Of a stretch of 64,000 nt of DNA, positions 26,558-48,667 are shown piece by piece. The translations under genes were made by a program, and so were the position numbers. This stretch comes from Pseudomonas sp. S06B 330 (lineage in GTDB: Bacteria; Pseudomonadota; Gammaproteobacteria; Pseudomonadales; Pseudomonadaceae). Numbering within the stretch: position 1 is the first letter of the stretch; each line of letters starts with the position of its first letter. The notes beneath the pieces are model-generated. The model did no database searches, had not been told where the DNA came from, and saw nothing but the letters and a program-made list of their open reading frames with translations. The DNA lies in the NCBI RefSeq assembly GCF_002845275.2, contig NZ_CP088149.1, positions 4,212,501-4,276,500 of the forward strand, written 5' to 3'.

Positions 26558-26753
26558 GAGATAATTTCACCTGTTTTTTGTCTTTATAAAGAATGTTTAT
26601 CCGCAAGCCGGAACAAAGGCAATGAACTTGAGAGAAATATTCTTCAGGCGCCCGAATATCATGTAGGACAAGACTGACTCCCTAGTCACAAGCCGGGGTG
26701 TCAGCAGCGACCGCTTCAAAGCTCAACAAAAACACAAGACAGAGCGAGCGTAA

Positions 26754-27992
<1,239 letters not shown>

Positions 27993-27993
27993 C

Positions 27994-29052: not shown

Positions 29053-30339
29053 ATGGGCACGCACGTCATCAAGATGCCGGACATCGGTGAAGGCATCGCA
29101 CAAGTTGAACTGGTGGAATGGTTCGTCAAGGTCGGTGACACCGTCACCGAAGACCAGGTCGTGGCCGATGTCATGACCGACAAGGCCACCGTGGAAATTC
29201 CTTCGCCAGTGAGCGGTAAAGTCCTGGCCCTGGGCGGGCAACCCGGTGAAGTCATGGCGGTGGGCAGCGAGCTGATCCGCATTGAAGTCGAAGGCGCGGG
29301 CAATCATCAGGAAGGCGCTGGCAGTGCTCCAGCCAAACAAGAAGCGGCGCCAGCCGCGGTAGTCGCCAGCAAACCCGAGCCGGTGCCAGAGCAACCTGCA
29401 GCAGTAACCCGCGCGGCCTCCGCCAGCACAGCAAGCGCCGCAGCCATCGTCCCGCGCGAAGCCAACGAACGCCCGTTGGCCTCCCCGGCCGTGCGCAAGC
29501 GCGCCCTGGATGCCGGTATCGAACTGCGTTATGTCCACGGCAGCGGCCCGGCCGGGCGCATCCTGCATGAAGACCTGGACACCTTTCTCACCCAGCCGAC
29601 CCGCAGCAGCCAAAGTGCACCCACCGGCTACAGCAAACGTACCGACAGCGAGCAGATCCCGGTCATCGGCCTGCGCCGCAAGATCGCCCAACGCATGCAG
29701 GATGCCAAGCGTCGTGTCGCGCACTTCAGCTATGTCGAAGAGATCGACGTCACGGCATTGGAAGAGCTGCGCCTGCACCTGAACACGAAGTGGGGCGACA
29801 GCCGCGGCAAGCTGACCCTGTTACCCTTCCTGGTCCGCGCCATGGTCGTGGCCTTGCGTGAGTTCCCGCAGATCAACGCCACCTACGACGACGAAGCCCA
29901 GGTCATCACCCGCCACGGCGCGGTGCATGTCGGTATCGCCACCCAGGGTGACAACGGCCTGATGGTGCCGGTACTGCGTCACGCCGAAGCCGGCAGCCTG
30001 TGGAGCAACGCCGGCGAGATCGTGCGCCTGGCCAATGCTGCGCGCGGCAACAAGGCCAGCCGTGAAGAACTGTCCGGCTCGACCATCACCCTGACCAGCC
30101 TCGGCGCGCTGGGCGGCATCGTTTCCACGCCGGTGGTCAACACCCCGGAGGTGGCCATTGTCGGCGTTAACCGCATGGTTGAACGGCCGATGGTGATCAA
30201 CGGCCAGATCGTTATTCGCAAGATGATGAACCTCTCCAACTCGTTCGATCACCGCGTGGTCGACGGCATGGACGCGGCCCTCTTCATTCAGGCCATCCGT
30301 GGCCTGCTCGAACAACCCGCCAGCCTGTTTGTGGAGTGA
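29053..30339 (+). CDS. bkdB: Branched-chain 2-oxoacid dehydrogenase E2, dihydrolipoyl acyltransferase
   Basis: The core of the complex, 428 residues. An N-terminal lipoyl domain (1-80) carries the DKA lipoyl-lysine motif in [17 protein letters not shown] linker rich in Ala/Pro/Glu follows, then the peripheral-subunit-binding domain (about 140-180, [15 protein letters not shown]). The C-terminal catalytic domain ends in [15 protein letters not shown] (H-x3-DG active site). ATG 29053 immediately follows the bkdA2 stop. Confidence 0.97.
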
Positions 30340-30341
30340 TC

Positions 30342-31727
30342 ATGCAACAGACGCAAAACACCACCCTGCTGATCATCGGTGGCGGCCCTGGCGGTTATGT
30401 CGCGGCCATACGCGCCGGCCAACTGGGCATTCCTACCATTCTGGTCGAAGGCCAAGCACTGGGCGGTACCTGCCTGAACATTGGCTGCATTCCGTCAAAG
30501 GCGCTGATCCATGTCGCCGAGCAGTTCCACCAGACCCACCTGCACAGTCAGCAGTCGAATCTGGGCATCAACGTTTCGCCGCCGACCCTGGACATCGGCC
30601 AGAGCGTGGCCTGGAAAGACGGTATTGTCGATCGGCTGACCAGCGGCGTTGCCGCCCTGCTGAAAAAGCATGGCGTGAAGGTGATCCATGGCTGGGCGAA
30701 CATCCTCGACGGCAAGACCGTCGACGTCGATGGCCAGCGCATCCAGTGCGAGCACCTGTTGCTGGCAACCGGTTCGAGCAGTGTCGAGTTACCAATGCTG
30801 CCGTTGGGCGGTGCGGTCATTTCCTCCACCGAAGCCCTTGCACCTAAAGCCCTGCCCAAGCACCTGACGGTTGTCGGTGGCGGCTACATCGGCCTTGAGT
30901 TGGGTATTGCCTACCGCAAACTTGGCGTCGAAGTCAGCGTGGTCGAAGCACGCGAGCGTATTTTGCCGACTTACGACAGCGAACTGACCGCACCGGTGGC
31001 TGAGTCAATCAAGAAACTGGGCATCACCCTCTACCTCAAACACAGCGTCGAAGGCTTTGAGGCTGACACTCAACGCCTGCAAGTGCGTGATCCGGCGGGA
31101 GCGTTGCTGCAGTTGGAGACGGATCAGGTATTGGTTGCCGTAGGGCGCAAGCCGCGCACTCAAGGTTTCAACCTGGAAAGCCTGGCCCTGAAGATGAACG
31201 GTGCGGCCATTGCCATCAACGATCAATGCCAGACCAGCATGCGCAATGTCTGGGCCATCGGCGACCTCAGCGGTGAACCCATGCTTGCTCACCGGGCCAT
31301 GGCCCAGGGCGAGATGGTCGCTGAAATTATTGCCGGCAAGTCTCGCCGCTTTGAACCCAACGCTATTGCCGCGGTGTGTTTCACCGATCCGGAACTGGTG
31401 GTGGTCGGCAAGACCCCGGACAACATCGAACAGGAAGGCCTGGACTGCATCGTTGCGCAGTTCCCCTTCGCCGCGAACGGTCGAGCCATGACCCTGGAAT
31501 CAAAAAGCGGGTTCGTGCGCGTGGTCGCGCGTCGCGACAATCACCTGATCCTCGGCTGGCAAGCCGTCGGCGTGGGCGTCTCGGAACTGTCGACGGCCTT
31601 TGCCCAGTCACTGGAAATGGGCGCACGCCTGGAAGATGTCGCGGGCACTATCCATGCCCACCCAACCTTGGGCGAAGCGGTCCAGGAAGCTGCATTGCGG
31701 GCACTCGGTCACGCCCTGCACCTGTAA
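30342..31727 (+). CDS. lpdV: Lipoamide dehydrogenase E3 of the branched-chain complex, LPD-Val
   Basis: Reoxidises lipoamide of BkdB with NAD. The 461-residue flavoprotein has the FAD fold ([15 protein letters not shown]), redox disulphide [16 protein letters not shown] fold ([19 protein letters not shown]) and C-terminal active-site His in [15 protein letters not shown] 30342 (MQQTQ) matches the known P. putida protein start better than the in-frame GTG at 30336. A terminator follows at 31754-31788. Confidence 0.97.
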
Positions 31728-31753
31728 CACACTGAAGCGGCTGCGGCCGATTT

Positions 31754-31788
31754 GACCCGCTGCACTTAGGTGTCGCGGGTCTTTTTTT
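31754..31788 (+). terminator. Rho-independent terminator of the bkd operon
   Basis: GACCCGC, 14-base loop, GCGGGTC, then TTTTTTT. It ends the bkdA1-A2-B-lpdV transcript 27 bases after the lpdV stop. Confidence 0.85.
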
Positions 31789-31861: not shown

Positions 31862-32758
31862 CTAGCCACGCGTAGCCTGGGCCTCGTCGAGCAACCATTC
31901 ACTGAACGCCTGAACCTCCGAGCGTTCGGCCGCCTCTTTCTGACTGACGATGTAGTAGGAGAATTGTGCAGGCCAGGGCTTATCCAGCACTTTGACCAAT
32001 TTACCCGCGGCCATCTCTTTCTGCGCATGATCCTCTGAAACCAACGCCAGCCCCTGACCCGACTCGGCCGCACGAATCAGCAGAAGATCGTCCTCAAAAC
32101 TGCTACCGCGCTCTGTACGCACATCTGCCGCCACGCCATGGGCGGTGAGCCAGAGCGCCCAGTCGGCGCGGTCAGAATCATGCAGCAAGGGGTAGTTCAG
32201 GCAGTCCTCCGGCTCCTTGAGTGGCGAGCCTGCGGCCAGCAACTCAGGGCTGCCCACTGGCACCATCACCGGCGTGATCAGGCGCGTGACATGCAATTCC
32301 GGATAAAGCCCCAGACCATGCCGAAGCGCGATATCCACCCTGTCGCGGCGCAAGTCGACCACCGAAGACGTGGTCTCGATCCTGACTTCGATTTGCGGGT
32401 ACATACGGGTAAAGCTCCCCAGGCGCGGCACCAGCCAGGAAGCGGCGAAAGCCGGTACCGTGCTGATCGTCAGCACTTGGCGATCGTTGGTGCCCTCAAG
32501 GCCGCGCACAACGCTCTCGATCTGACCAAATGCCTCTTGCAGCAGTGGGTGTGCCTGTGCGCCCGCTTCGGTCAGGCGTACGCCGTGATGCTCGCGAATG
32601 AACAGTGACGTGCCGACACGTTCTTCCAGCAAGCGGATTTGCTGACTGACCGCCCCGGAAGTGACGTTCAACACTTGAGCGGCTGTTTTGATACTTCCGT
32701 AATGACCAACTTCAACAAACGTACGCAGTGCGAGCAATGGAATCGAAGGCTTGATCAT
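31862..32758 (-). CDS. LysR-family regulator, GcvA-like (paralogue 1)
   Basis: A 298-residue LysR protein. The N-terminal winged helix-turn-helix (about 8-65, LLALRTFVEVGHYGS through GAVSQQIRLLEERVGTSLFI) and effector domain (about 95-290, with STVPAFAASWLVPRLGSF and VDIALRHGLG) are of the GcvA group. It closely resembles the two other LysR proteins at 43129-44046 and 50240-51136, down to CLNYPLL, DSDRADW and SFEDDLLL stretches. A TAG-N5-CTA element (32763-32773) stands only four bases upstream of ATG 32758 and there is no good Shine-Dalgarno, suggesting autoregulation through occlusion. Target genes are not proven; the neighbouring hydrazine-type operon is likely. Confidence 0.85.
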   Translation of the reverse strand: MIKPSIPLLALRTFVEVGHYGSIKTAAQVLNVTSGAVSQQIRLLEERVGTSLFIREHHGVRLTEAGAQAHPLLQEAFGQIESVVRGLEGTNDRQVLTISTVPAFAASWLVPRLGSFTRMYPQIEVRIETTSSVVDLRRDRVDIALRHGLGLYPELHVTRLITPVMVPVGSPELLAAGSPLKEPEDCLNYPLLHDSDRADWALWLTAHGVAADVRTERGSSFEDDLLLIRAAESGQGLALVSEDHAQKEMAAGKLVKVLDKPWPAQFSYYIVSQKEAAERSEVQAFSEWLLDEAQATRG

Positions 32759-33010: not shown

Positions 33011-33042
33011 AAGCCGGTTAACTGTGGTCAGTTAACCGGCTT
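33011..33042 (-). terminator. Strong terminator of the biosynthetic operon
   Basis: A perfect 14-bp stem (AAGCCGGTTAACTG, loop TGGT on the plus strand, CAGTTAACCGGCTT) followed on the minus strand by a T-run. It lies 41 bases after the decarboxylase stop codon and closes the eight-gene operon starting at 42545. Confidence 0.92.
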
Positions 33043-33083: not shown

Positions 33084-34538
33084 TCAACCCGACTTGCGCA
33101 CGGCGTCCCGGGCCTGATTCAGTTGCACCAGCAGATTGTCGACATCTGCGCGGGTCGAGCGGTAGCTGGTAATGCAGGTACGCAGGGCTTTTTCCTTGTT
33201 GAACGTGGTTGACGATAACCAGACCTGGTTGGCCGCCAAGACCTGAACCAAGAGCTGATCAATATTCACGCCCCCGGCATCCTTGAAGCAGATAACCGGC
33301 AACGGTGTCGCGTTTACCACTACCCACCCATGCAGCTCCAATGACGACTTCAAGTAGGCGCCCAATTCAACTTGATAGTCGATCATCTTGCTAAAGCCTG
33401 CACGACCGAGAATTGCCAACGGGATGAACAGTTTCAAGCCGTTGAAGCGCCGAGACCACTGCATCGAGTTGACATAGGGATCAATATTGACGTCATCGCC
33501 CGCCGGCATGTAATTGGTCGATACCGCAAACGGTTCGTTGAGCAGGGTCTTGTCAGCACAGATGAACATGCCCGTGCCCATCGGAGCGGTCAGCCACTTG
33601 TGGGCATCCAGGGTGATCGAATCAGCCAGCTCGATGCCGCGCAAGAGGGGCGAATGGTGATCGCTGAGCAAGATAGCCCCCGCCCAGGCTGCATCAACAT
33701 GGAAATACAGACCCTGTTCTCTGGCCACAACCGCCATCTCTGCAAGCGGATCGATAACCCCGGCGTTGGTCGTACCGGCAGTGCCCACCAGCATGAAAGG
33801 GGTAAACCCACGTTGACGGTCATCGGCAAGGGTGGCGCTCAGTTGAGCGACATCCATTTTGCCGTTGACGTCCACCCCGACCAACCGTACAGCGTCATGC
33901 CCAAGCCCCGACTGCAAGGCGATCTTCAACCAGGCAAGGTGGCTGTCGGCAGAAATATAGAACACCGGTTGCGACGGTTGAGACTGCAGGCCCTGCTTGG
34001 CGAAACCAGGAATCTTACGCGTCAAGGCACAAATCAGTGCCGTGCAATTGGCCTCCGCACCACCGGTGGTGAACGCCCCGCCGACGTGGGCGGGGGTAAA
34101 CCCGGCCAATTGCCCCAGGTAACGAATAAGTTTCTCTTCAATGTCCACGCAGGCTGGAGCATGGCTCCAGACGGCCAGTTGCGGGTTGTAGAGTGCGGTA
34201 ATGAAATCGGCGATACCACCCCAGAAGGAAGAGGTAGGGTTGAACAAACCGAAATAGTTGGGGCTGGTCACATGCACCATGCCCTGCTCCATCAGGTTGA
34301 TCACATCGCCAAGGACCGAAGCCGCCGGCAGGCTACCATCAAAGTCGTAGCGGGCGATGACTCCGGCAATGTCGGCCTTGGACATCGAGGGATTGACCTT
34401 GATCGTCGAGATGTCGGCCACGTAGTTCTCCACCACATTCTTCAAAAAGCCGAAAACCTCCGTACGCTCGTCTTGCTCCGGAAAGAAGGACGCGATGATT
34501 TCTCGACTGACATCCGTGTTCAGGGTTGTTGTGCTCAT
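33084..34538 (-). CDS. Group II PLP-dependent amino acid decarboxylase
   Basis: A 484-residue member of the pyridoxal_deC family (glutamate, aromatic amino acid, 2,4-diaminobutyrate and related decarboxylases). SPNYFGLFNPTSSFWGGIAD corresponds to the substrate-pocket region, FTTGGAEANCTALICAL binds PLP phosphate, VDAAWAGAILLS holds the Asp that binds the pyridine ring, and LDAHKWLTAPMGTG carries the PLP lysine. ATG 34538 has AAGGA nine bases upstream. Last gene of the operon, 22 bases after the second monooxygenase. Next to a diaminobutyrate-type aminotransferase it could make 1,3-diaminopropane as Dat/Ddc pairs do, but it may instead decarboxylate a late N-oxygenated or hydrazino amino acid. 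Family secure, substrate unknown. Confidence 0.87.
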   Translation of the reverse strand: MSTTTLNTDVSREIIASFFPEQDERTEVFGFLKNVVENYVADISTIKVNPSMSKADIAGVIARYDFDGSLPAASVLGDVINLMEQGMVHVTSPNYFGLFNPTSSFWGGIADFITALYNPQLAVWSHAPACVDIEEKLIRYLGQLAGFTPAHVGGAFTTGGAEANCTALICALTRKIPGFAKQGLQSQPSQPVFYISADSHLAWLKIALQSGLGHDAVRLVGVDVNGKMDVAQLSATLADDRQRGFTPFMLVGTAGTTNAGVIDPLAEMAVVAREQGLYFHVDAAWAGAILLSDHHSPLLRGIELADSITLDAHKWLTAPMGTGMFICADKTLLNEPFAVSTNYMPAGDDVNIDPYVNSMQWSRRFNGLKLFIPLAILGRAGFSKMIDYQVELGAYLKSSLELHGWVVVNATPLPVICFKDAGGVNIDQLLVQVLAANQVWLSSTTFNKEKALRTCITSYRSTRADVDNLLVQLNQARDAVRKSG

Positions 34539-34560
34539 GTTCTTAAATCCTTGAATCACG

Positions 34561-35868
34561 TCAGATGGAATAGTCGAAAGGCACAACAACGCTGGCCTGC
34601 AACGACTCAAAGATCAGCCCGGCGCGAAACGCCACCGCGGAGAACGACTGGCCATCACTGATGCCGTGCGTGCGCTCCGACAAGCCATTGACATAAATTT
34701 GCACGCCGTCACTGTTGCGCAGCGCCACCTTGTACTGACCATCGACTTGCAAGCCACCCTGAGCATCCTTGACCAGATAGTCCTCCAGTGGCTTGAGCAG
34801 CCCTGGCACCATGGGCTGTTGATAGCCGGTACCCAGCGCGATGGCATCGACAACGTACTCACTGAGCGCACCGGTGAACGAGTCCCGCAAGGTCACGTGA
34901 TAACCCTCGTCAGTGCGCACAAGCGTCAGCAACTCCGAGTTCACCGCCATTTTCAGGCGCTCTTTGCCGACGATCTCGTCTTCATAAATCACCGAATAGA
35001 GGTGCTGACTTTCATCAACATCGATACCCGAATAGTTGGTGCTCTTGACGTGATTGAAGAAACGCTCGCGCCCTTCGCTATCCAGGCCCTTGAAGTACTC
35101 AATGTTTTCCGGCAGGAACACCAGGTTGGGGAACTGCCCCAACTGCGCCACCTTGAAGCCGATCGAGCGGTGCACCGAGACAACATGAATGTCGTCTTTC
35201 TTGGCGATCAGGTCAGCAATGACCTCACCGGCACTCTGCCCCGATCCCAGGACCAACCAGCGCTTGGGAATATCGCCATTGAACGCCTTGAGGCGGTCCA
35301 GGTATTCACTGGCATGAAATACATGGCTGCCCATGTGCTCCCTGAACACTGCCGGCACATTCGGCGACGAGCCATTGGAGAGAATCAGCTTGCGAGACTC
35401 ATAAGTGAAACCGTCACCCTGGACCCTGAAACCACTGAGCTGGCCGTCTTTGAGGATCGGTTCGATGGCCTGGACGGCGTGGTCGTAACGCACATAGTCC
35501 TTGAGTTTCCCGGCTACCCAGGTCATGTAATCCGACCATTCAAAACGGCTGGCCGGGCGCCCCAGCAGACCGAACTTGAACAGGCGATTCTTTTCCTTGA
35601 GGTACATGGCAAAGCTGTAAGGGCTTTGCGGGTTACGCGGGGTTACCAGGTCCCGATAGACGTGATGATTGATATCGGTGTTGCTGAGCAGCAGGTTCGG
35701 ATGCCAAGCGCAGCTTGCGGCCTTTTCCAGCGCCAGAAAACTACGCCAGCCGGTGCCGCCCTGCGCCGTGAATTCTTCATCGTAAACGCAAGCAAGTGCC
35801 AGGCCTGCCGGACCAAAGCCGATACACAGCGTATCGATGTAGTGGGAGGACGTCGTCGCATGGTTCAT
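34561..35868 (-). CDS. SidA/IucD/PvdA-family N-monooxygenase (second copy)
   Basis: A 435-residue flavin- and NADPH-dependent amine N-hydroxylase. The FAD fold is DTLCIGFGPAGLALACVYDE (about 12-31). W-containing AWHPNLLLSNTDINHHVYRD follows, then LVTPRNPQSPYSFAMYLKEK, an NADPH fold LVLGSGQSAGEVIADLI (about 205), and ALGTGYQQP near residue 345 replacing the usual ATGY. Relatives hydroxylate the side-chain nitrogen of lysine, ornithine or diamines. It is diverged from the first copy (41220-42545), so a different substrate or a second oxidation is likely. One base separates it from the binding-protein gene upstream. Confidence 0.88.
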   Translation of the reverse strand: MNHATTSSHYIDTLCIGFGPAGLALACVYDEEFTAQGGTGWRSFLALEKAASCAWHPNLLLSNTDINHHVYRDLVTPRNPQSPYSFAMYLKEKNRLFKFGLLGRPASRFEWSDYMTWVAGKLKDYVRYDHAVQAIEPILKDGQLSGFRVQGDGFTYESRKLILSNGSSPNVPAVFREHMGSHVFHASEYLDRLKAFNGDIPKRWLVLGSGQSAGEVIADLIAKKDDIHVVSVHRSIGFKVAQLGQFPNLVFLPENIEYFKGLDSEGRERFFNHVKSTNYSGIDVDESQHLYSVIYEDEIVGKERLKMAVNSELLTLVRTDEGYHVTLRDSFTGALSEYVVDAIALGTGYQQPMVPGLLKPLEDYLVKDAQGGLQVDGQYKVALRNSDGVQIYVNGLSERTHGISDGQSFSAVAFRAGLIFESLQASVVVPFDYSI

Positions 35869-35869
35869 T

Positions 35870-36841
35870 TCAGGATTCTCGATTAGTTTGGATGAGTTCG
35901 ACGGGGCGCAATTGCTGATTGTCGTTGTTGGTCCACAGGCACAATGCAGCGTGACGCTGCTCGCCTTTGATGAAACTCAACTCACCCAGGGAAGTGGTGA
36001 ACGTGGTCGTGTTGAGGTCGGCAATAAAATCATCCGAGCTCGCCTGCAATTCACTGACAATTTCCAGCGCGGCAATAGTTTCGAGGAAGAACACCCCCGG
36101 CATTTCCCCGTAGCGCTGGACATACTCGCGGACACAGGGTGCCGCCGGGTTGACCAGAGCAGCCGGGGCGAAACCGACGCCGCGAATGCGCCCGGCACTG
36201 ATCGATGCGGGGATGCCCAGGTGCGCACAGGCGGCGTCGTCGGTCAGGATGAAATCGCGATTTGCGTCCTTGCCCTCGCAAGCCTGCAGGAACATCTCAC
36301 TGCGGCGCCCGGTGCCGATAAAGACAATGCTCGAATCCTTTTCCGTCGCGCGCGGGTCACGAGAACGGTTGGCCAGCGTTGACTTGAGGACACCGGCCAG
36401 GTTCTGCGCGTAGCTGGACTCGTCGGTATAGACCTCGATATTGAACTCCTCGCCCGCTGCGAACAGGCCCAGCATGGTGTCGACGATATCCCGATTGTTT
36501 GCACACACCCGGAAGACCGAGTCGCGATCCTGTGTCAGGTTGGTTTCGGTGGCGCTGGGTAACAGCAGCGCCACACCGTGCTCGGCATAGAAGCCTGCAG
36601 CGCCGATTGCCGAACTGCTCGCGTAGTGCCCCACCACCACATCGACACCTTGGGACACCAGGTAATCGGCAGCATGTGCGCCGCCCTCCAGCGAGCCGTA
36701 GTCTTCACAGAGAATGAACTCGATCCGATCACCTGCGAACAGCTCCTTGTAGATCTGCAAGGCACGCAGGACCGTCTCGCTATGAATCGACCTGGCAGGA
36801 TCCAGAATCGCGGCAAAGCCGCAACGCAGTGATTTTTTCAT
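35870..36841 (-). CDS. Signal-less periplasmic-binding-protein homologue (LivJ/AmiC type)
   Basis: A 323-residue Peripla_BP_6-type protein. Start ATG 36841 (MKKSLRCGFAAILDPARSIH) overlaps the preceding flavoenzyme stop by four bases. Family features are GVDVVVGHYASSSAIGAAGF near residue 65 and VALLLPSATETNLT near 90, followed by the second lobe. It has no signal peptide, so it should remain in the cytosol, as does AmiC, which senses amides. No permease or ATPase genes accompany it. It may sense an intermediate or product, chaperone a reactive compound, or have become an enzyme. Roles are guesses; fold assignment is reasonable. Confidence 0.72.
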   Translation of the reverse strand: MKKSLRCGFAAILDPARSIHSETVLRALQIYKELFAGDRIEFILCEDYGSLEGGAHAADYLVSQGVDVVVGHYASSSAIGAAGFYAEHGVALLLPSATETNLTQDRDSVFRVCANNRDIVDTMLGLFAAGEEFNIEVYTDESSYAQNLAGVLKSTLANRSRDPRATEKDSSIVFIGTGRRSEMFLQACEGKDANRDFILTDDAACAHLGIPASISAGRIRGVGFAPAALVNPAAPCVREYVQRYGEMPGVFFLETIAALEIVSELQASSDDFIADLNTTTFTTSLGELSFIKGEQRHAALCLWTNNDNQQLRPVELIQTNRES

Positions 36842-37977
36842 TGGGCCAGTTCCGCCAGAGGAAACCGTGCAAGGCCGTAAACGGCATTTCCTTGGGCGGG
36901 CGCCAGGCGCCCCTGGGCGCGACCGGCCAGCAGGGTATTCCTGACGTTCTGGGCAACGGCCAGAGCGATCTTGTAGCCGATACCGCAGAAGCCGGTCGCC
37001 GCAATGCACCGATGATTTTCATCGACAAAGTCCAGCACCGGACGACCATCCACGGTGTAGGAATCAAAGCCTTTGAGCACCGAAACCACATCATCGACAC
37101 TGTGCATGACTTTCGACCCGCCCAGGCGCGCCAGGATGTCCGGCGCGATCAGCTTCTGGTCGTAATTGAGCAGTTCTGGCGTTTTTGCCGACACCCTGAT
37201 TTTCGACCCGGCCTGGTAGAAACCGCGATTGAGTGGAATCAGATGGGTACCGGTCTTGGTATCGATGATCGGCAGCGGAATCTCTCGAGCGGTCGACAGA
37301 CTCGCCAACGGAATGCTCTGGGTCTCGATCGGCAAGAATTCGCACAGCTCGCCGGACCAGGCACCAGCAGCCAGCACCACATAGTCGGCTTCAAGCGTGA
37401 CATTGGCGCAGCGCACCGTTACACCACTGGCGCTAGTGCTGAAGCCGTCGACCTGGGTGTGCTCCATCACCGGGTTGCCGTAGGACTTGACCATGAATGC
37501 CAAGTCCCGGGCCGCCTTGCGAATATCCCCGAAACCGCCCTTGGCTTCATAGAGAATGGTGCGCACATTGTCGGAGGAGTAGCAGCCACAGCTGAGTTCG
37601 TAAGCCTTCTGAGCAGAGATCAACTCCAGCGGGTACAAGGCATCGCTGTAGGTGTTGATGCACTCATTGATCGAGTCATAGCTGAGTTGGTTTTTCTCAC
37701 ACGCGTAAAGTATCCCTGAGCGCTTCAAACTCTGGGCAAACACCTGACCAACCCGGGTCTCCTCCATCATCTCGATACTGATCCGCGAGAGCTTGGCAAT
37801 CTCCCGATCGGGGTCATACAGACGAAACAGGGCACCTGAAAATTTCGTGGCGCCATTGCCACCGATGGTTTCCTTTTCCAGCAAGGAAACCTGATGCCCC
37901 TCGACAGCCAGGTTGGCAGCAATGGTCGTCCCAATGATGCCGCCACCAATGACGATGATACGTGCTGAATTAGTCAA
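36838..37977 (-). CDS. DAO-family FAD oxidoreductase, Spb39-like
   Basis: A 379-residue D-amino-acid-oxidase/glycine-oxidase fold protein. It starts at TTG 37977 with AAGGAG seven bases upstream, so that RIIVIGGGIIGTTIAANLA forms the N-terminal dinucleotide fold, followed by SLLEKETIGGNGATKFSGAL. A C-terminal FAD segment (AATGFCGIGYKIALAVAQNV) is present. In s56-p1 biosynthesis the FAD enzyme Spb39 oxidises the hydrazine-linked amino acid pair, releasing hydrazinoacetate. The position immediately downstream of the MetRS-like and cupin genes (19 bases) makes the same step likely here. The substrate is inferred. Confidence 0.8.
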   Translation of the reverse strand: MTNSARIIVIGGGIIGTTIAANLAVEGHQVSLLEKETIGGNGATKFSGALFRLYDPDREIAKLSRISIEMMEETRVGQVFAQSLKRSGILYACEKNQLSYDSINECINTYSDALYPLELISAQKAYELSCGCYSSDNVRTILYEAKGGFGDIRKAARDLAFMVKSYGNPVMEHTQVDGFSTSASGVTVRCANVTLEADYVVLAAGAWSGELCEFLPIETQSIPLASLSTAREIPLPIIDTKTGTHLIPLNRGFYQAGSKIRVSAKTPELLNYDQKLIAPDILARLGGSKVMHSVDDVVSVLKGFDSYTVDGRPVLDFVDENHRCIAATGFCGIGYKIALAVAQNVRNTLLAGRAQGRLAPAQGNAVYGLARFPLAELAQ

Positions 37978-37996
37978 TCCGAGGCTCCTTGCCTGA

Positions 37997-39484
37997 TTAT
38001 TCAAGGCCCAGCAGCGATGAGAAGGCGGCCAGTTCGTGTTCGCTGATCTGGCTACGCAGAACACTGGCCAGTTGCGGCAAAGTGGGCGCGCACAGCAACG
38101 TGAACAGCACAATCAGATTGCGGCGCGCTTGCCCCTGCGCGATGTCGCTTTCAAGTGCTTCGAGCATTGCCATCAACACCTGAGCGATGCGCTTGGTTGA
38201 AAAGTTGTCATGCCGCGAACACTGCTGCCATTGCTCGACAATGGCGCGCTCGAAATCGGACAGCAGCACAGCGTCACCAGGGCGTGCGGCATGAGCCGGA
38301 TCGAAGAACACCGAAGAAATCTTCGGCAGCAACTCGACGAAAATACGCTTGCGCCAAGCCCAGAATTCTTCAGCTGAGAAGTTTTCGGTCTGCTCTTCCG
38401 GAGCGTTCAACGACACATAGAAGCGCACGCTATCGGAACAGGCATCACCGACCAGATCGCGGACCCAGATGGCATGGCCGCGACTGGTGGAAAAATCTTC
38501 GCCATCGAGTTTCAAGAACGCGTTGGTGTAGAAAGCGTTACTGAACTTGAACTGCTCGTTGAGCAGCACCTGGGCGGGATAAGCCAGTACATGGCTGTAG
38601 GAGCAGTCCATCCCCAGGAAGTTGACCATGCGCGTCTTGTCGCTGAACAACATCGCATAGGCATCCCGCGCCTGCTCGTTGCTTTCGGACAAGGCTTTGA
38701 GCGCCGCGAAGTAACCGGCCTGCCCCATGAACCAGGTATGCACGCGGTGCGCTTCATCATCATAGAGTTTGAGCCCCGCCTCATCCGGACGGGTTACCCC
38801 CCAATCAAGTACACCGCGGGCGAACGCATCGTCGATCCAGGTTCTGAGCTGAGCACGCATAGGCGACCGGGCAAGTCGCGCGCGCAACGCTGGCGCTACT
38901 TTAGAAAACGTGAGGAATTTACGCTCGACCGGCCGGTGAGAAACCGCCTGCTTACACAGAATGCACTTCAAATCCTTCATTTCCAGGGCATTCGGTGCCA
39001 TCGCACAGGATTCACACTGGCTCGGGTCAGAGCTGGTGCCGCAATGATTGCAAGCGCCACGGGCGAAGGCTTCGTACCCCCATACCTCACACTGTTCACA
39101 GTAGGGCTCAACACTGGGCTTGGCCTGGATCAGGCCGCTTTCCAGGCCCTGCTCGTAGAGCATTCGTGCAGCGTCCTCGAAATAGGGATTCTGGTACGAC
39201 TCCAGCCAGTAATCGACCTCGATCCCGACCATGCGCAGTGACTGCTGAATCTTCGCGGAATTTTCCTTAGCCAACGCCACTTCGTCGCCAGACATTTCCA
39301 TGGCTTTGCGGCGCAGGTACGACTGGTAATCATCCGAATAGGACACCAGGTAGCAATGGGCACCCTTCTGACGCTGAGTACGAGCGAAGATATCAGCACT
39401 CAGAAACGGACCGGCGATATGGCCAATGTGCAAGTCGCCGTTAGGGGTCGGCGGCGTGATCGTGACAATGAACTGATCAGTCAT
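37997..39484 (-). CDS. Methionyl-tRNA-synthetase-like half of a hydrazine synthetase
   Basis: A 495-residue class I synthetase relative. The HIGH motif is intact (PNGDLHIGH, residues 15-22), and four CxxC pairs form two zinc knuckles (129/132, 145/148, 157/160, 174/177) as in long MetRS. The KMSKS loop, however, reads DFSTSRG (330-336), with both lysines lost, which argues against normal tRNA charging. Start ATG 39484 overlaps the cupin stop by four bases; the longer reading frame upstream is the cupin gene. In Spb40 and PyrN a cupin is fused to such a domain, which activates an amino acid (glycine or glutamate) for coupling to an N-hydroxylated amine before cupin-mediated N-N bond formation. 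A housekeeping metG is unlikely given context and the lost lysines. Confidence 0.86.
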   Translation of the reverse strand: MTDQFIVTITPPTPNGDLHIGHIAGPFLSADIFARTQRQKGAHCYLVSYSDDYQSYLRRKAMEMSGDEVALAKENSAKIQQSLRMVGIEVDYWLESYQNPYFEDAARMLYEQGLESGLIQAKPSVEPYCEQCEVWGYEAFARGACNHCGTSSDPSQCESCAMAPNALEMKDLKCILCKQAVSHRPVERKFLTFSKVAPALRARLARSPMRAQLRTWIDDAFARGVLDWGVTRPDEAGLKLYDDEAHRVHTWFMGQAGYFAALKALSESNEQARDAYAMLFSDKTRMVNFLGMDCSYSHVLAYPAQVLLNEQFKFSNAFYTNAFLKLDGEDFSTSRGHAIWVRDLVGDACSDSVRFYVSLNAPEEQTENFSAEEFWAWRKRIFVELLPKISSVFFDPAHAARPGDAVLLSDFERAIVEQWQQCSRHDNFSTKRIAQVLMAMLEALESDIAQGQARRNLIVLFTLLCAPTLPQLASVLRSQISEHELAAFSSLLGLE

Positions 39485-39849
39485 GGCTGGTCTCCCAACG
39501 ACTTGAGAAAGTCTTTCGAGCTTTCCCGGTCCCACCAGATCGAATAAAAGTGAAAGTCCGCATCGCTGTCATTGACCACTGAGTGTTCGGTGTTCAGCGG
39601 CAACAGAATCAAGTCGCCTTTTTCCGCGACCACGAACTCCTCACCCACCCTGACGTTGGCCCGCCCGTCGATGGCAATGAACAGCTCATACTCATCATGG
39701 GAGTGACGTCGGCTCTCGGTGCCTGGGCGAACCACACACCAGGCCCCGCCAAACGGTGACTTCATGCCTTCCCAAGGCAGCAACCTGGATCCATCCAGAT
39801 CGTATTCATGAACCAGCGCGCCCCAGTTCATTTTTCGAAAGACAGTCAT
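39481..39849 (-). CDS. Stand-alone cupin, N-N bond-forming half of a hydrazine synthetase
   Basis: A 122-residue single-domain cupin with a complete metal site: H49-x-H51-x3-E55 in motif 1 (RRHSHDEYE) and H89 in motif 2 (PLNTEH). In Spb40/PyrN-type enzymes a zinc cupin domain rearranges the ester between an activated amino acid and an N-hydroxylamine into a hydrazine. Here the domain is a separate gene that overlaps both the aminotransferase (4 bases, ATGA) and the MetRS-like gene (4 bases, ATGA), so equal amounts and a complex are expected. By itself it could be any small cupin; the neighbours make the assignment. Confidence 0.82.
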   Translation of the reverse strand: MTVFRKMNWGALVHEYDLDGSRLLPWEGMKSPFGGAWCVVRPGTESRRHSHDEYELFIAIDGRANVRVGEEFVVAEKGDLILLPLNTEHSVVNDSDADFHFYSIWWDRESSKDFLKSLGDQP

Positions 39850-41216
39850 TGACCGGCCTCCTGATCGGCATCGAGCGCATGCATGTGCTCAGCCAGAACC
39901 TGTTCCAGGACAGCCAGTGCTTGCCCCACGCTTTCAGCGCTCACGTTCAACGGTGGCAGCACTCGCAGAACGGTATCGTCACGCCCACCCAATTCGGTGA
40001 TCAGGCCGCGACGCAGTGCACGTTGCTGAATCTTCGAAGCCGTTACTTCACAGACCTTGCCTGTATACGGGCTGAGAATTTCGACACCCAGCATCAGCCC
40101 CAAACCGCGGACCTCACCCACCAGGGCAAAATCCCGCTGCAGGTTCTCGAGGTGGCTGCGAATTTGCTGCGAACGCTCACGGACATTCCCCAGCACATCA
40201 TCGCGCTTGAATACTTCAATCGCCTTGGCGCCCGCGACGAATGCCAGCTGGTTACCGCGGAACGTGCCGATATGGCTGCCTGACGGCCAGTTCTTCAAGG
40301 ACTTCTGGTAGAACATCAGCGCCGAAGGCAAGCCAATACCGCTGGTGCCTTTGGAGGTCACGAAGATGTCCGGTGTGATGCCGTACTGTTCGAAGGCATA
40401 CCAGGTGCCGGTACGCCCGCAACCTGTCTGGATCTCATCAATGATCAGCGGGATGGCAAACTTCTTGGCTACCCGTGCCACGCGCTCGACAAAGGTCTTG
40501 TCGGCCACATAAGCGCCGCCCTCTCCCTGCACCAGTTCAAGGATGATCGCAGCGACATTGCCAAGGCCCGAGTTGACATCTTCCAGGGCTGATTCGAGCA
40601 ACAGCGCAGCATCCACTTGAGCCTGGTTCAACACTGAGCTGGCCTGTGAACGAGACGTCGATCCATAGGGGAAGAAATGCACCCCCGGCATTTTCCCTGG
40701 CACATTCTTTTTCATGCTGCGGTTGCCCGTTAGCGACAGTGCGCCGTTGGTACAACCGTGGTAGCCACCACGGAAGCTGATGACTTCATCGCCACCGGTA
40801 ACCGCCTTGGCCAGCTTGATCGCCGCTTCGACAGCATCGGCGCCCGTTGGTCCACAGAAGTGCATGCGGTAAGTGTCGCGTACGGCTGCCGGAAGCATGC
40901 TCAAGTGGGCATCAGTAAACTGCTCTTTGGCCTGGGTCGGAAAGTCCAACCCCATGCACAATGTCCCGGCCTGCTCGATAACTTGAGCAACAACTTCTGG
41001 ATGCGAATGGCCCAGCGGCAAAGAACCAGCCCCTGAAAGAAAATCGATAAATACGTTGCCGTCGAGGTCCTCGACATAGCAACCCAAGCCTTTCGCCAAG
41101 GAAATAGGCAAACGCTTGGGATAAGAAATCGCCGTGGATTCCTGCTGCGATTGTTTGAGCAATGCTTGTTGAGAGCGAGGCCCAGGAATATCGGTCTGCA
41201 CGCTAATATTTTTCAT
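39846..41216 (-). CDS. Class III aminotransferase, diaminobutyrate--2-oxoglutarate type
   Basis: A 456-residue PLP enzyme related to Dat/EctB, which make 2,4-diaminobutyrate from aspartate semialdehyde and glutamate. Features are GAGSLPLGHSHPEVVAQVIE, FCGPTGADAVEAAIKLAK (phosphate binding), FRGGYHGCTNGALSLTGN, IIDEIQTGCGRTG (Asp for the pyridine ring) and FVTSKGTSGIGLP (PLP lysine). It starts three bases after the first monooxygenase, without a clear Shine-Dalgarno, so coupled translation is likely. It probably supplies a diamine building block for the pathway; ornithine or lysine transamination cannot be excluded. Confidence 0.86.
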   Translation of the reverse strand: MKNISVQTDIPGPRSQQALLKQSQQESTAISYPKRLPISLAKGLGCYVEDLDGNVFIDFLSGAGSLPLGHSHPEVVAQVIEQAGTLCMGLDFPTQAKEQFTDAHLSMLPAAVRDTYRMHFCGPTGADAVEAAIKLAKAVTGGDEVISFRGGYHGCTNGALSLTGNRSMKKNVPGKMPGVHFFPYGSTSRSQASSVLNQAQVDAALLLESALEDVNSGLGNVAAIILELVQGEGGAYVADKTFVERVARVAKKFAIPLIIDEIQTGCGRTGTWYAFEQYGITPDIFVTSKGTSGIGLPSALMFYQKSLKNWPSGSHIGTFRGNQLAFVAGAKAIEVFKRDDVLGNVRERSQQIRSHLENLQRDFALVGEVRGLGLMLGVEILSPYTGKVCEVTASKIQQRALRRGLITELGGRDDTVLRVLPPLNVSAESVGQALAVLEQVLAEHMHALDADQEAGQ

Positions 41217-41219
41217 GAT

Positions 41220-42545
41220 TCAGGCTTCTGTTTTCATCAAGTTGGCAGAGGTGGCGTTAGCGGTAGAAAGTTGCTTTATCGAATCGAGAATATTTTTCGA
41301 GCGAATCGACACCAGGCTCAATGACCCCGCATCGCCCATACCGTGGGAAGATTCGCAGAGACCATTCAGGTACAACCCCAGTCCATCAAGCCCCTCTAAT
41401 GCAAGGCGATAATCACGCCCGACCCTCATCTCACCGACTTCATCTTTTTCCAGTAACGGATAGACACTATCCAGCAACGCCGGACACAACTCTTGATGCG
41501 CCAACGGACCAAAATCACGGAAACCGGTCGCGGAAATAACCATGTCGACTTCCAACGAAGTTATGTTTTCGTCACTGTGCGCGGCTATCAATTCCAGAGA
41601 CACTTTTGACCCCACCGTTACGGCGCTGACAATCTCTACCGAGTTATGCACCTTCAATTTGCTGTTACCAAAATGCTTGTCGCGGTACAGCGTACGGTAC
41701 AACTCATCCAGCACGTCGGCATCGGAGGCCGAGTAATTGGTGAGATTCAGGTCATCCTTGAGCCGTTGCTTGTGCTCTGGCTTGCTGCTGTAGAACAGAT
41801 CAACGAACCCCGGGAAGTACACTTCCCCGGTGAATGGCGATGTATCTTTCAAACGATAACCGAACTTTCTCGACACCCCGTGTACCGCCACATGAGGAAA
41901 CTTATCGGCCAGATAGATCATGATTTCTATCGCTGACTGACTGCCACCGACGATAGCAACACTGTTGACCTCGCCAGCGTTGAGGCGGCCAAGGATGTTA
42001 TTGAATTTAGCCCCATGGACCAGTTGATCCCGGCTCAACCCGCTAAGGACGGGAGGGACGTACGGCGTGCGGCCAGTACCTACCACTAGGTTCGTGCAGG
42101 TGTAGGTCTTGCCGGCCGTGGTCTTGATCTCAAAGCGGGCGTCGCTGTCGCTTTGTGCCAGGGCGCGGACACCACTGACGACCGTTGAATAATGCACCGA
42201 ACCATTGAAGTGTTCGGCCGCCCATTTGATGTAGTCGCGATACTCATACCGATAGGGATAGTAAAGCCCCATGTTCAGGTGCTCGAACAATCGCCCCTTC
42301 TCATGGAGATAATTGGTGAACGAGTAGTAGCTTCGCGGATTACGTGGCGTGGCCAGGTCGCGCAACGGGTGATTTTGAATATCCGAGTTTGCCAGCAATA
42401 ATCCTGTCTGCCACTCGCTCGATGCTTCTTTTTCCAAAAAAAGACATCGCGCGCCCGGTGCCTCTTCCTCCAGCGTAATTGCCAATGAGATGTTCGAAGG
42501 GCCAAAGCCCACACCAATGATGTCGTAATGCATAGATGCGCTCAC
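41220..42545 (-). CDS. SidA/IucD-family lysine/ornithine-type N-monooxygenase (first copy)
   Basis: First gene of the operon, 441 residues from GTG 42545, chosen because AGGGAGG lies six bases upstream; ATG 42533 is a weaker alternative. The FAD fold is IIGVGFGPSNISLAI, substrate-loop landmarks are LLANSDIQNHPLRDLATPRN, the NADPH fold is VAIVGGSQSAIEIMIYLADK, and ISATGFRDF matches the family ATG(Y/F) motif. These enzymes N-hydroxylate side-chain amines; Spb38, the corresponding enzyme for hydrazine formation, makes N6-hydroxylysine. Because diaminobutyrate/diaminopropane-type genes are in the operon, another diamine substrate is possible. It is too far from any siderophore synthetase to suggest hydroxamate siderophore synthesis. 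Confidence 0.89.
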   Translation of the reverse strand: MSASMHYDIIGVGFGPSNISLAITLEEEAPGARCLFLEKEASSEWQTGLLLANSDIQNHPLRDLATPRNPRSYYSFTNYLHEKGRLFEHLNMGLYYPYRYEYRDYIKWAAEHFNGSVHYSTVVSGVRALAQSDSDARFEIKTTAGKTYTCTNLVVGTGRTPYVPPVLSGLSRDQLVHGAKFNNILGRLNAGEVNSVAIVGGSQSAIEIMIYLADKFPHVAVHGVSRKFGYRLKDTSPFTGEVYFPGFVDLFYSSKPEHKQRLKDDLNLTNYSASDADVLDELYRTLYRDKHFGNSKLKVHNSVEIVSAVTVGSKVSLELIAAHSDENITSLEVDMVISATGFRDFGPLAHQELCPALLDSVYPLLEKDEVGEMRVGRDYRLALEGLDGLGLYLNGLCESSHGMGDAGSLSLVSIRSKNILDSIKQLSTANATSANLMKTEA

Positions 42546-43128: not shown

Positions 43129-44046
43129 ATGACTGCCGTCTTACCGCTATTGGCACTCAGGGCGTTTACTGAAGTCGGCAGGCGAGGAAGCGTTAAAGCT
43201 GCAGCCCAATCCATGGGCGTGTCTCCCGGTGCGGTCAGTCAGCAAATCCGGATTCTCGAAGACCGGGTGGGTTTCTCGCTTTTTCTGCGCACCTCCAAAG
43301 GCATCAAGCTCACAGCACGCGCCGAGCGGGTTTACGAAACGCTGCAAATATCCTTCGACAACATCGACAAGTCATTGAAGTCACTGCGTGCAATGCAGTA
43401 CGAGCACAAGGTGTCGATCAATACCACCCCCGCATTCGCTGCCTCCTGGCTGATCCCCAAGCTGACCGATTTCTATAGCAAATTCCCCCACATAGAAATC
43501 AGCATTGAGTCGTCCAACGAACTGGTCGACCTCAAACGCAGCTCTACCGATATTGCACTGCGTCATGGCCTGGGCAACTACCCAGGGCTGAGCACGATGC
43601 GCCTGATCGCCCCACGCCTGATTCCGGTTGCAGCCCCCGGCCTGCTGGCCAATGGGCCAGCCATCAATACCGTCGAAGATTGCCTGAACTACCCGCTGCT
43701 GCAAGACTCCGATCGCGCCGACTGGCACTTGTGGCTGCAAGCACACGGTATCGATGATGATGTGCGTGCCCGCAAAGGCCCCAGCTTCGAAGACGACTTT
43801 CTCCTTGCCCGCGCGGCCGCAACAGGTCAAGGCATGGCCCTGGTCCCGGAATTTTGCGTCGAGGAAGAATTGCGCGAAGGCAAGCTGTGCGTGGCCCTGG
43901 AAAAGACCTGGCCGGCGAGGTTCGCTTACTATGCAGTCACGCTCCCGGAAACACTGCGACGCTCGGAAATCAGAGAAGTACTGAGCTGGCTGATTGAGCA
44001 AACCACGCAGGAGGAGGTGTATGTGCAGGAACTGGCGGTGAGTTAG
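43129..44046 (+). CDS. LysR-family regulator, GcvA-like (paralogue 2), divergent from the operon
   Basis: A 305-residue LysR protein. The winged helix-turn-helix covers about 5-62 (LPLLALRAFTEVGRRGSVKA; GAVSQQIRILEDRVGFSLFL) and the effector domain about 90-295. AAGGAG stands seven bases before ATG 43129. Divergent placement from the hydrazine-type operon is the classical LysR arrangement, so it is the best candidate for pathway-specific regulator. It is a clear paralogue of the regulators at 31862 and 50240. Confidence 0.88.
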   Translation: MTAVLPLLALRAFTEVGRRGSVKAAAQSMGVSPGAVSQQIRILEDRVGFSLFLRTSKGIKLTARAERVYETLQISFDNIDKSLKSLRAMQYEHKVSINTTPAFAASWLIPKLTDFYSKFPHIEISIESSNELVDLKRSSTDIALRHGLGNYPGLSTMRLIAPRLIPVAAPGLLANGPAINTVEDCLNYPLLQDSDRADWHLWLQAHGIDDDVRARKGPSFEDDFLLARAAATGQGMALVPEFCVEEELREGKLCVALEKTWPARFAYYAVTLPETLRRSEIREVLSWLIEQTTQEEVYVQELAVS

Positions 44047-44390: not shown

Positions 44391-45548
44391 ATGAGCACTC
44401 AATCACCGGCCAAGGCCTTCTCCAAGCCGTTGGCACTGACAGCACTCGCCCTGCTCTGCGCCATTGGCGGACTCTACCTCTATGACAGTCAGCGCAAGCA
44501 GGCTGCCGAACAGGCTGCTTTGGCCGCAGGCGAGCCAGCCCCTATTGCAGTGGAGGTCGCGGCCGTTCGCAGCGAGGTGTTGCCGGCCACGGTCAAGGCA
44601 ATCGGCACCGTAGTCGCAGATCATCAGGTGCTGGTGGCGGCGGAAGTGGCCGGACGCATCACCAAAGTGCATTTCACCAGTGGTCAGACCATTACTGCCG
44701 GTACACCGCTGGTTCAACTCAACGATGGCCCACTGCGCAGCGAACTGGAACGCCGCCGGGTTGCCCTGCGCTTGGCCAGCACCCACCTCGATCGCGCCAA
44801 GCGCCTGCGTGGCCAAACCATGTCCAGCGCAGAGTACGAACAGCACGTAGCGGCCTATGACGAGGCCCGAGCTCTGGTTGCACAATCGGAAGAAGACATT
44901 TCCCAACGCCTGGTGCGCGCACCTTTTGGTGGCGAGCTTGGTCTGCGCCGGATAAACCTTGGCCAGTACGTGGAGGCCGGCACACCAATTGCCACACTGA
45001 CTGACAACCGCGTGCTGCACATCGACTTTACTGTCCCAGAGCGCAACCGTGCAGCACTGAAGACGGGCCTTCAGGTGCGAGTCAAAGGGGACGGGGAAAG
45101 TGGCAAGACCCTCAGCGGGCAGATTTCTGCAATCGATCCGCAAGTGGACAAGGAAAACCATGCCATACGCGTGCGGGCCACTCTGCGCAACGACGCACAA
45201 GGCGCCCTGTGGCCCGGAAAGTTTGCTCATGTAGTGCTTGAGCTCAGTCCCGGCCCTGCCGTCACCACTATTCCTACCGTAGCGCTGGAAACATCACTGT
45301 CCGGCGAGCGTATTTATGCCCTGCGGGAAACCGATGGCGTATTGCGCGCCCAGCTGGTTTCCGTACGTACCGGCTCGCAGTCAGACAGCCGCACCGAAGT
45401 GCTGGGCAGCAACCTGAATGAAGGCGACCTGGTTGTAGTAGCCGGCCAGATCAACCTGCAGGACGGAGCCCTGGTTGCCCCGCGCCAGCCCGAGGCACTC
45501 GCGTCAGGATCCGAGGCTATCGGGTCCTATACCGGTAAAAAGGAATAG
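44391..45548 (+). CDS. RND efflux periplasmic adaptor, MexH-like
   Basis: A 385-residue membrane-fusion protein. One N-terminal hydrophobic anchor (ALTALALLCAIGGLYLY) is followed by a barrel-sandwich lipoyl domain (VLVAAEVAGRITKVHFTSGQ; LVRAPFGGELGLRRINLGQY), a helical hairpin between its halves (about 110-165), and beta-barrel and membrane-proximal domains. GAGG precedes ATG 44391. First gene of a three-gene pump operon; the best-resembling system known to me is MexGHI-OpmD. It links the inner-membrane pump to the outer-membrane channel. Confidence 0.92.
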   Translation: MSTQSPAKAFSKPLALTALALLCAIGGLYLYDSQRKQAAEQAALAAGEPAPIAVEVAAVRSEVLPATVKAIGTVVADHQVLVAAEVAGRITKVHFTSGQTITAGTPLVQLNDGPLRSELERRRVALRLASTHLDRAKRLRGQTMSSAEYEQHVAAYDEARALVAQSEEDISQRLVRAPFGGELGLRRINLGQYVEAGTPIATLTDNRVLHIDFTVPERNRAALKTGLQVRVKGDGESGKTLSGQISAIDPQVDKENHAIRVRATLRNDAQGALWPGKFAHVVLELSPGPAVTTIPTVALETSLSGERIYALRETDGVLRAQLVSVRTGSQSDSRTEVLGSNLNEGDLVVVAGQINLQDGALVAPRQPEALASGSEAIGSYTGKKE

Positions 45549-45554
45549 ACCGCC

Positions 45555-48629: not shown

Positions 48630-48667
48630 CCGAGACACTCAGGAATGCTCAGCGAAAAGGATATCCA

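Follow-up and report, generated by a model that had tools for sequence, protein, structure and literature searches.

The DNA analysed here is a 64,000-nucleotide stretch of the Pseudomonas sp. S06B 330 genome (contig NZ_CP088149.1, positions 4,212,501 to 4,276,500), hereafter the window, in which an eight-gene operon at positions 33084-42545 may encode the formation of a nitrogen-nitrogen (N-N) bond. All eight genes lie on the minus strand and all of their reading frames are open. The first gene in the direction of transcription (41220-42545, GTG start with GGGAGG upstream) encodes a 441-amino-acid (aa) flavin adenine dinucleotide (FAD) N-monooxygenase of the lysine/ornithine class, named NMO1 (PF13434, 286 bits), and is followed by genes encoding a class III aminotransferase of the diaminobutyrate (dat) family (39846-41216, 456 aa), a stand-alone cupin (39481-39849, 122 aa), and a protein resembling methionyl-tRNA synthetase (MetRS; 37997-39484, 495 aa), whose ATG start at 39484 is in a four-base overlap with the cupin stop. 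The second half of the operon encodes a DAO-family FAD oxidase (36838-37977, 379 aa, TTG start with AAGGAG upstream; PF01266, 124 bits), a binding protein with the fold of the Leu/Ile/Val and gamma-aminobutyrate (GABA) receptors (35870-36841, 323 aa; PF13458), a second FAD N-monooxygenase, NMO2 (34561-35868, 435 aa; PF13434, 240 bits), and a pyridoxal phosphate (PLP) group II decarboxylase (33084-34538, 484 aa; PF00282, 214 bits).

The reading frames and the Pfam domains detected over the operon (Lys_Orn_oxgnase twice, Aminotran_3, Cupin_2, tRNA-synt_1g, DAO, Peripla_BP_6, and Pyridoxal_deC) confirmed the kinds, order, and strand of the genes in the packed operon described by the original prediction, made from the DNA letters. 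The intergenic spacing, from NMO1 to the decarboxylase, was 3, -4, -4, 19, -4, 1, and 22 bases, and the gaps of at most 22 bases and the three ATGA overlaps described previously were exact. The strong terminator was retained in part. A terminator-like stem of 14 pairs is present 3' of the decarboxylase gene (33011-33042), and on the minus strand T occupies the last two bases of the stem and the next four; the scan assigned this stem to the plus strand, and as the window contained nine terminator-like sites versus a mean of 11.6 in shuffled sequences, it is distinguished by its stem length only. The promoter scan returned 6 sites versus 5.4 in shuffles, no better than chance.

A scan of genome contigs gave one locus, in Serratia oryzae (L001), where 8 of the 8 operon genes were found in the same order with 62-77% identity. 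The layout is thus not due to chance, and the gene order, whose conservation had been proposed as a check of the operon, was kept. We refer to this eight-gene arrangement, as found in the window and in Serratia oryzae, as type III. Homologues of the MetRS-like protein, the binding protein, and the decarboxylase were located on same-sized contigs (size in brackets) in Pseudomonas sp. 210_17 (5,647,290), S. rubidaea (5,056,178), and P. temperata (116,181); in P. sp. RL_5y_Pfl2_73, X. siamensis, and a P. putida, this held for two of the three proteins. We infer from these shared contig sizes, and not from a reading of gene order, that Photorhabdus and S. rubidaea carry the operon as well.

Other arrangements were found among the more distant relatives. 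Of the 398 Pseudomonas genomes sampled, 30, including the genome of the window itself, contained a match to the MetRS-like protein at an E-value of 1e-60 or better; the other 29 matches were 41-47% identical, and the loci of 20 of them, 18 kb each, were read. In 19 of these 20 loci, called type I, the order cupin, MetRS-like, DAO, binding protein, and NMO2 was observed, a five-gene core shared with the window in the same order. Type I clusters carry SbnA/SbnB-type genes where the window has the aminotransferase, NMO1, and the decarboxylase: the PALP/ornithine-cyclodeaminase gene family was present in all 19, and the one type I locus tested against NCBIfam scored 394 over a cut-off of 350 for SbnA and 386 over 327 for SbnB (2,3-diaminopropionate synthesis). 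Type II loci were found in Pseudomonas G346 (L052), on the Xenorhabdus plasmid pXT29 (L032), and on a Vibrio halioticoli plasmid (L055), the last of which is unannotated and was searched only for matches to the operon proteins. They have in common with the window the MetRS-like protein, the cupin, the DAO oxidase, the binding protein, an NMO1-type hydroxylase, and a similar aminotransferase. The Xenorhabdus and G346 clusters, unlike the window, contain additional GNAT, adenylating enzyme, and alpha/beta hydrolase genes, and no NMO2-type or decarboxylase match was found in either of these two loci. The counts over 22 related loci given below refer to L001 and L032-L052.

Several minor observations concern these relatives. 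Type I loci (L033-L051, for example L033:7782-17050) also contain an FAD/NAD-binding family (17 of 19) and a LysE exporter family (10 of 19). The type II cluster of Xenorhabdus (L032:14995-27357) lies on a 29-kb plasmid and adjoins Tn3 and recombinase genes, and in Vibrio (L055:15693-20918) the aminotransferase and binding-protein matches are each split over two frames, possibly owing to frameshifts or sequencing errors. Relatives of the MetRS-like protein were also named from Serratia, Photorhabdus, and Xenorhabdus and, with 43-45% identity, from many Pseudomonas syringae strains. A class-wide search matched only the genome of the window (1 of 369, with 272 genera sampled and few members of each), and an Enterobacterales search anchored on a Serratia phosphotransferase system protein gave 0 of 143. 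A phage origin was rejected, the cupin having no match at an E-value of 1e-5 in 50,697 phage records.

Living systems rarely contain N-N bonds, and only a few of the enzymes that form them are understood. In the hydrazine synthetase PyrN, according to excerpts of Zhao et al. (PMC8664883), a MetRS-like domain uses ATP to form an O-acyl ester between an amino acid and N6-hydroxylysine, and a zinc cupin domain with the metal ligands H50, H52, E56, and H90 rearranges this ester to the N-N product. The likeness to PyrN put forward in the original prediction was upheld for the MetRS-like protein of the window, for which the PyrN domain is the nearest solved relative by both sequence and fold. Its best sequence match in the PDB was 9l8v, the C-terminal, MetRS-like domain of PyrN, with 165 bits versus 123 for the true archaeal MetRS of P. 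abyssi, and a Foldseek search with its AlphaFold2 model (predicted local distance difference test, pLDDT, 93.4) placed three PyrN C-terminal domain chains at ranks 1-3. The HIGH motif is kept and varies only to HLGH or HVGH among the 120 of 294 matches listed. Moreover, 68 columns are invariant in 55 sequences, including both His and the Gly of this motif, suggesting that the active site is still used and under selection.

The cupin carries H49, H51, E55, and H89 at the metal-ligand positions, with exactly the spacing of PyrN in an alignment with 22 relatives. The window cupin keeps all four ligands, whereas the second His is replaced by Gln in all 19 type I cupins and by Asn in the two type II cupins aligned. 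Among solved cupins, plu4264 of Photorhabdus (4mv2/4q29, 183 bits) comes closest; papers that mention it carry titles on structural methods and immune receptors. Each of the 22 related loci has both a cupin gene and a MetRS-like gene. As judged from these comparisons, the MetRS-like/cupin pair looks like that of the hydrazine synthetases.

The aminotransferase passed the cut-off of the dat model (TIGR00709, 407.4 over 401.6 bits) and is predicted to make L-2,4-diaminobutyrate. A diaminopropionate supply of the SbnB type was considered unlikely, since the best match of a type I SbnB-like protein in the genome of the window was only 23% identical with 33.8 bits (SbnA was not searched). In a tree of 17 N-monooxygenases, NMO1 clustered with three type II enzymes (support 1.0), and NMO2 clustered with the five type I enzymes included (support 0.82). 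The three type II loci each carry a homologue of the window aminotransferase; that of Xenorhabdus is annotated as diaminobutyrate--2-oxoglutarate transaminase, that of Vibrio was found as a match, and that of L052 is cut by the end of the locus (36% over 88 residues), with further sequence read in L060. Judged by these relationships, the operon is a mosaic, in which NMO1 sides with clusters holding a diaminobutyrate-type aminotransferase and NMO2 with SbnA/SbnB-type clusters. The lysine N-hydroxylase of the original prediction gains no support from this grouping, and NMO1 is predicted to N4-hydroxylate L-diaminobutyrate.

The closest solved structure to NMO2 is 5cqf (468 bits). At the position of PvdA Lys69, which we take to contact the ornithine carboxylate, an Arg was found in all 21 NMO2 and 4 NMO1 sequences aligned, both window enzymes included; this position is Ala in the Robbsia N-monooxygenase, encoded beside an RhbB-like decarboxylase, and Ser in 6xbb. 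Both window enzymes also retain TNYS. A basic residue at this position, together with TNYS, favours amino acids over diamines as substrates. The DAO oxidase, matched in 22 of the 22 related loci, is predicted to cleave a C-N bond and to free a hydrazine.

The binding protein was likewise present in 22 of the 22 related loci. The best solved match of its profile was the GABA receptor Atu2422 (3ip5, 103 bits), and a Foldseek search with its model (pLDDT 90.4) agreed on receptors of the Leu/Ile/Val type. S75, T98, D201, and D202 do not vary over the 36 sequences compared; in structures of this fold, Ser and Thr at these positions presumably bind the carboxylate and Asp the amine of the ligand. 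The fold and the amino-acid-pocket positions are thus common to the window protein, Atu2422, and the Leu/Ile/Val-binding proteins. Unlike the Atu2422-type ATP-binding cassette (ABC) binding proteins, the window protein has no recognisable signal peptide, and the operon contains no transporter genes. A lipobox pattern was absent from 35 of 36 N-termini, including that of the late-starting P0135, and the sole match, LVAC in L052, sits inside the first strand. These proteins begin at the first strand, and no strongly hydrophobic N-terminal stretch was seen on a simple scale. The binding protein, as far as its N-terminus indicates, is probably cytosolic. A cytosolic binder of an amino acid or of a hydrazine is the simplest reading, and the protein may act as a sensor, a shelter, or an enzyme. 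A similar protein (30% over 181 residues) is encoded in a Pantoea cluster. In Photorhabdus antumapuensis, a 430-aa protein (P0136) contains both binding-protein and N-monooxygenase domains, as if fused or as if one gene were broken.

Taken together, these data make it moderately likely that the operon encodes an N-N bond-forming pathway of the cupin/MetRS-like hydrazine-synthetase kind, belonging to a divergent branch and with two predicted N-hydroxylases. From the genes and conserved positions described above, we infer every reaction of the following route, with all its substrates, its partner amino acid, its late steps, and its product. The aminotransferase would make L-2,4-diaminobutyrate, and NMO1 would hydroxylate its terminal nitrogen. 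The MetRS-like protein would then activate a second amino acid and attach it to the hydroxylamine as an O-ester, which the zinc cupin would rearrange, bonding the two nitrogens. The DAO oxidase would cut a C-N bond to release a hydrazine, the decarboxylase would then remove a carboxylate, and NMO2 would N-oxidise the product. The likely outcome would be a short C3 hydrazine, from which ring closure might give a pyrazoline-like compound, or which might end up as a hydrazone or an azo compound. In the cytosol, an amino acid or the hydrazine would be bound by the signal-less binding protein.

Several results weigh against this pathway. The first concerns K458 of PyrN, which is needed for PyrN activity (a K458A variant had negligible activity in the excerpts of PMC8664883) and aligns with Asp330 of the window protein, where the KMSKS region reads DFSTSR. 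Position 336 of the 546-residue chain 9l8v, the Lys of GEKFSTGR, corresponds to PyrN 458 if the chain ends at residue 668, and the 560-residue chain 9vq4 gives, by arithmetic, the identical numbering. At this position, the 120 of 294 matches listed (E-value 1e-40, window protein included) have Asn (95), Asp (22), or Thr (3), and none has Lys. The Lys is kept in five of five other hydrazine-cluster proteins (two from Streptomyces and one each from Pantoea, Klebsiella, and Robbsia), in PyrN, and in P. abyssi MetRS. The window branch is thus a branch of its own, and since the residue is replaced in all 120 members listed, activity cannot be read from homology alone. The KMSKS loop is also the least certain part of the model, with a pLDDT under 50 for residues 333-335. 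The requirement for K458 in PyrN may or may not hold for the whole family, and the MetRS-like/cupin pair of the window is therefore regarded as a divergent relative of the hydrazine synthetases.

When 16 MetRS-like proteins were placed in a tree, the branch of the window grouped with type I (support 0.97) and was split, with a support of 1.0, from the five other hydrazine-cluster proteins and from the true MetG of its own genome. This MetG fell among the five at a support of 0.11, and a common origin with the hydrazine-cluster proteins, apart from true MetRS, is therefore not established by the tree. The original prediction was to fall if the proteins lay outside the hydrazine-synthetase clade; PyrN is the nearest among solved structures, but this small tree speaks neither for nor against such a clade. 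The pocket residues of the MetRS-like protein differ from those of its own MetG and of the Streptomyces, Pantoea, Klebsiella, and Robbsia proteins; the partner amino acid could not be deduced from them, and none is named. RHS1, described in the same excerpts (PMC8664883) as a solved cupin (5uqp) with demonstrated N-N activity, did not appear when the window cupin was compared with the PDB (12 matches at an E-value of 0.001).

The accessory proteins add further points of this kind. No relation beyond the FAD motif, if that, was detected between the DAO oxidase and two Streptomyces and one Pantoea cluster oxidases, the best hit to the two Streptomyces proxies having an E-value of 0.007 over 46 residues. 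The proposed likeness to Spb39, judged on these Streptomyces and Pantoea proxies rather than on Spb39 itself, thus comes down at best to a superfamily resemblance. At the Asn of the PvdA FVN motif, Gly is found in NMO1 and in its counterpart from Serratia, and Asp or Glu in two type II relatives. Finally, the binding protein is not universal: no such gene is annotated in the stretch holding the Robbsia cluster or in one of two Streptomyces stretches, and in the other a binding-protein gene lies beside transporter permeases, some kilobases away. Because the tree did not support a common origin and the RHS1 match was missing, we weighed the N-N pathway lower, and the rival without an N-N bond higher. 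The original reading of a hydrazine operon is thus supported in part, for the MetRS-like/cupin pair, and is weakened by the loss of the K458 equivalent and by an oxidase unlike the cluster oxidases tested.

A bolder version of the N-N pathway would combine a separate, lysine-less branch, a cytosolic binding protein sheltering the ester or the hydrazine, and two combined hydroxylases, leading to a doubly N-functionalised, decarboxylated hydrazine or pyrazoline of a new class that would be exported by a co-inherited resistance-nodulation-division (RND) pump. As a whole, this combination is speculative and rather doubtful.

An alternative order of reactions depends on the decarboxylase, which shares one operon with the aminotransferase. 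Diaminobutyrate could be decarboxylated first to 1,3-diaminopropane, with N-hydroxylation and coupling to follow, as is suggested by a plasmid of Robbsia andropogonis that groups aminotransferase, decarboxylase, N-monooxygenase, MetRS-like, and cupin genes; in addition, passages of PMC11705231 name N3-OH-DAPN, an abbreviation that they leave unexpanded, as an accepted hydroxylamine. This order nevertheless seems unlikely for the window. Its decarboxylase scored 170 bits against the RhbB diaminobutyrate decarboxylase model (cut-off 900), versus 423, also below the cut-off, for the Robbsia enzyme, and among PDB entries it scored 132 bits with 2qma, a chain named diaminobutyrate decarboxylase, versus 174 with 4rit. 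In the best 120 of 7841 matches, homologues 54-87% identical came from Pseudomonas, Enterobacterales, Photorhabdus, and Xenorhabdus, down to Xenorhabdus bharatensis (585 bits), after which the score dropped to 501 bits (at most 52% identity) and a broad group whose names are partly aromatic-L-amino-acid or glutamate/tyrosine decarboxylase-like. It is this distance from RhbB that led us to place decarboxylation after the formation of the N-N bond. The Arg that occupies the carboxylate position in both window N-monooxygenases, versus Ala in the Robbsia enzyme, also argues against a diamine substrate. Among the 22 related loci, the decarboxylase was found only in that of Serratia oryzae.

It is also conceivable, and in our view quite unlikely, that no N-N bond is formed, the MetRS-like protein being inactive without its KMSKS lysine and the product being a doubly N-hydroxylated amino acid or a hydroxamate-like metabolite. 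Two N-monooxygenases in one operon would fit such a product, as would the lysine missing from all 120 matches listed and kept in the other hydrazine-cluster proteins, PyrN, and P. abyssi MetRS. Against this, the invariant columns that include the HIGH motif point to selection on the site, the window cupin keeps its metal ligands, and a cupin gene accompanies the MetRS-like gene in all of the related loci. Finally, a spare or resistance methionyl-tRNA synthetase in an operon with some other function, as might be read from the NCBIfam equivalog NF008859 'methionine--tRNA ligase' (667 bits, cut-off 553) and from a tree that does not separate true MetG from the other hydrazine-cluster proteins, is highly improbable, as the genome already encodes another MetRS with an intact KMSKS (a 696-residue open frame around C1:1362308-1362493), the signature is not kept in the MetRS-like protein, its closest solved relative is PyrN, and cupin, DAO, and N-monooxygenase genes stand beside its gene in the 22 related loci. 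The automatic name methionine--tRNA ligase may thus be wrong for this branch and may hide such clusters.

Returning to the N-N pathway, the window has in common with the PyrN, RHS1, Spb40, and Tri28 synthetases both protein parts, the metal-ligand positions, and a linked N-hydroxylase and flavin oxidase. It differs from them in its separate proteins (as in RHS1), in the Asp that replaces the KMSKS lysine, and in having two N-hydroxylases, and it contains in addition the dat-type aminotransferase, the decarboxylase, and the binding protein. The original prediction regarded the small molecule as unfamiliar from Pseudomonas. Hydrazine synthetases, however, are already known from this genus: excerpts of PMC11705231 describe a widespread family in which Por11 of P. 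orientalis, shown in vivo, and A0A423LFS6 of P. fluorescens are identified hydrazine synthetases, Por11 coupling N4-hydroxydiaminobutyrate or N5-hydroxyornithine with glycine. Compared by this description only, Por9/Por11 and the window both represent a Pseudomonas hydrazine synthetase; Por11 stands under one accession and is probably fused, whereas the window parts are separate. By the description in the same excerpts (PMC11705231), the actinopyridazinone pathway (Apy9-11) would share N4-hydroxy-L-diaminobutyrate and a DAO-family oxidase with the window, which is set apart from it by the decarboxylase, the second N-monooxygenase, and the binding protein.

In another study, 129 related gene clusters were mined from Actinobacteria and Proteobacteria (PMC13061610). 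The word Pseudomonas occurs 0 times in the main text of that article, and the operon may still be among its 129 clusters. A literature search that covered few subscription journals found no publication on an eight-gene operon of type III, on its binding protein, or on a branch lacking the lysine, and no product of these clusters in print. Hydrazine synthetases as such are thus known from Pseudomonas, and what appears to be new here, at the level of gene content and homology, is the mosaic operon, the binding protein in all 22 loci, and the lysine-less branch. If this branch is active, the hydrazine-synthetase reaction tolerates the loss of a lysine needed by PyrN, and the added binding protein may serve to deal with an intermediate that is toxic or unstable.

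Related clusters were also seen on plasmids. Plasmid p1 of Robbsia andropogonis (L058:5577-11832) carries an aminotransferase, an RhbB-like decarboxylase, a possible diamine-type N-monooxygenase, a MetRS-like protein, and a cupin beside insertion sequence (IS) elements, and may hold a 1,3-diaminopropane-based hydrazine cluster. A Pantoea ananatis plasmid typed as conjugative (L054:8350-16401) carries genes for an N-monooxygenase, a cupin, a MetRS-like protein, an oxidase, a major facilitator superfamily (MFS) protein, an ATP-grasp protein, a signal-less binding protein, and a GNAT protein. The cluster of a Klebsiella variicola plasmid (L056) starts similarly to that of Pantoea, and the record ends after the MetRS-like gene.

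The operon is flanked by regulatory and transport genes. A LysR regulator gene lies downstream on the minus strand (31862-32758), and its homologue (65%) is directly upstream of the Serratia operon. A second, divergent LysR gene (43129-44046, plus strand) lies upstream of NMO1 and is followed on the same strand by reading frames for an RND efflux adaptor, pump, and outer-membrane factor (44391-50194), named from reading rather than by family search. The RND pump is a candidate exporter, by linkage alone. In one relative (G007), whose lipoamide-dehydrogenase-like protein is 93% identical, the DNA is colinear with window positions 26131-31787 (88.7% identity), and the match resumes from window position 50272 at 71%, after a different gene. 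The 18.5 kb in between, containing the operon, the two LysR genes, and the RND trio, are missing at this site, and the best match to the RND pump (53%) is located elsewhere in G007. In three further relatives, the same dehydrogenase was followed by none of the probed genes within the stretch fetched. The GC content of the operon is 56.3% versus 59.0% for the rest of the window. Beyond the RND genes, a third LysR gene (59% identical to the downstream one) and a glutathione-S-transferase-like gene (50240-51901) form a pair that is also present in G007, there without the operon, and a gene similar to this glutathione-S-transferase-like gene adjoins the region of the Serratia operon.

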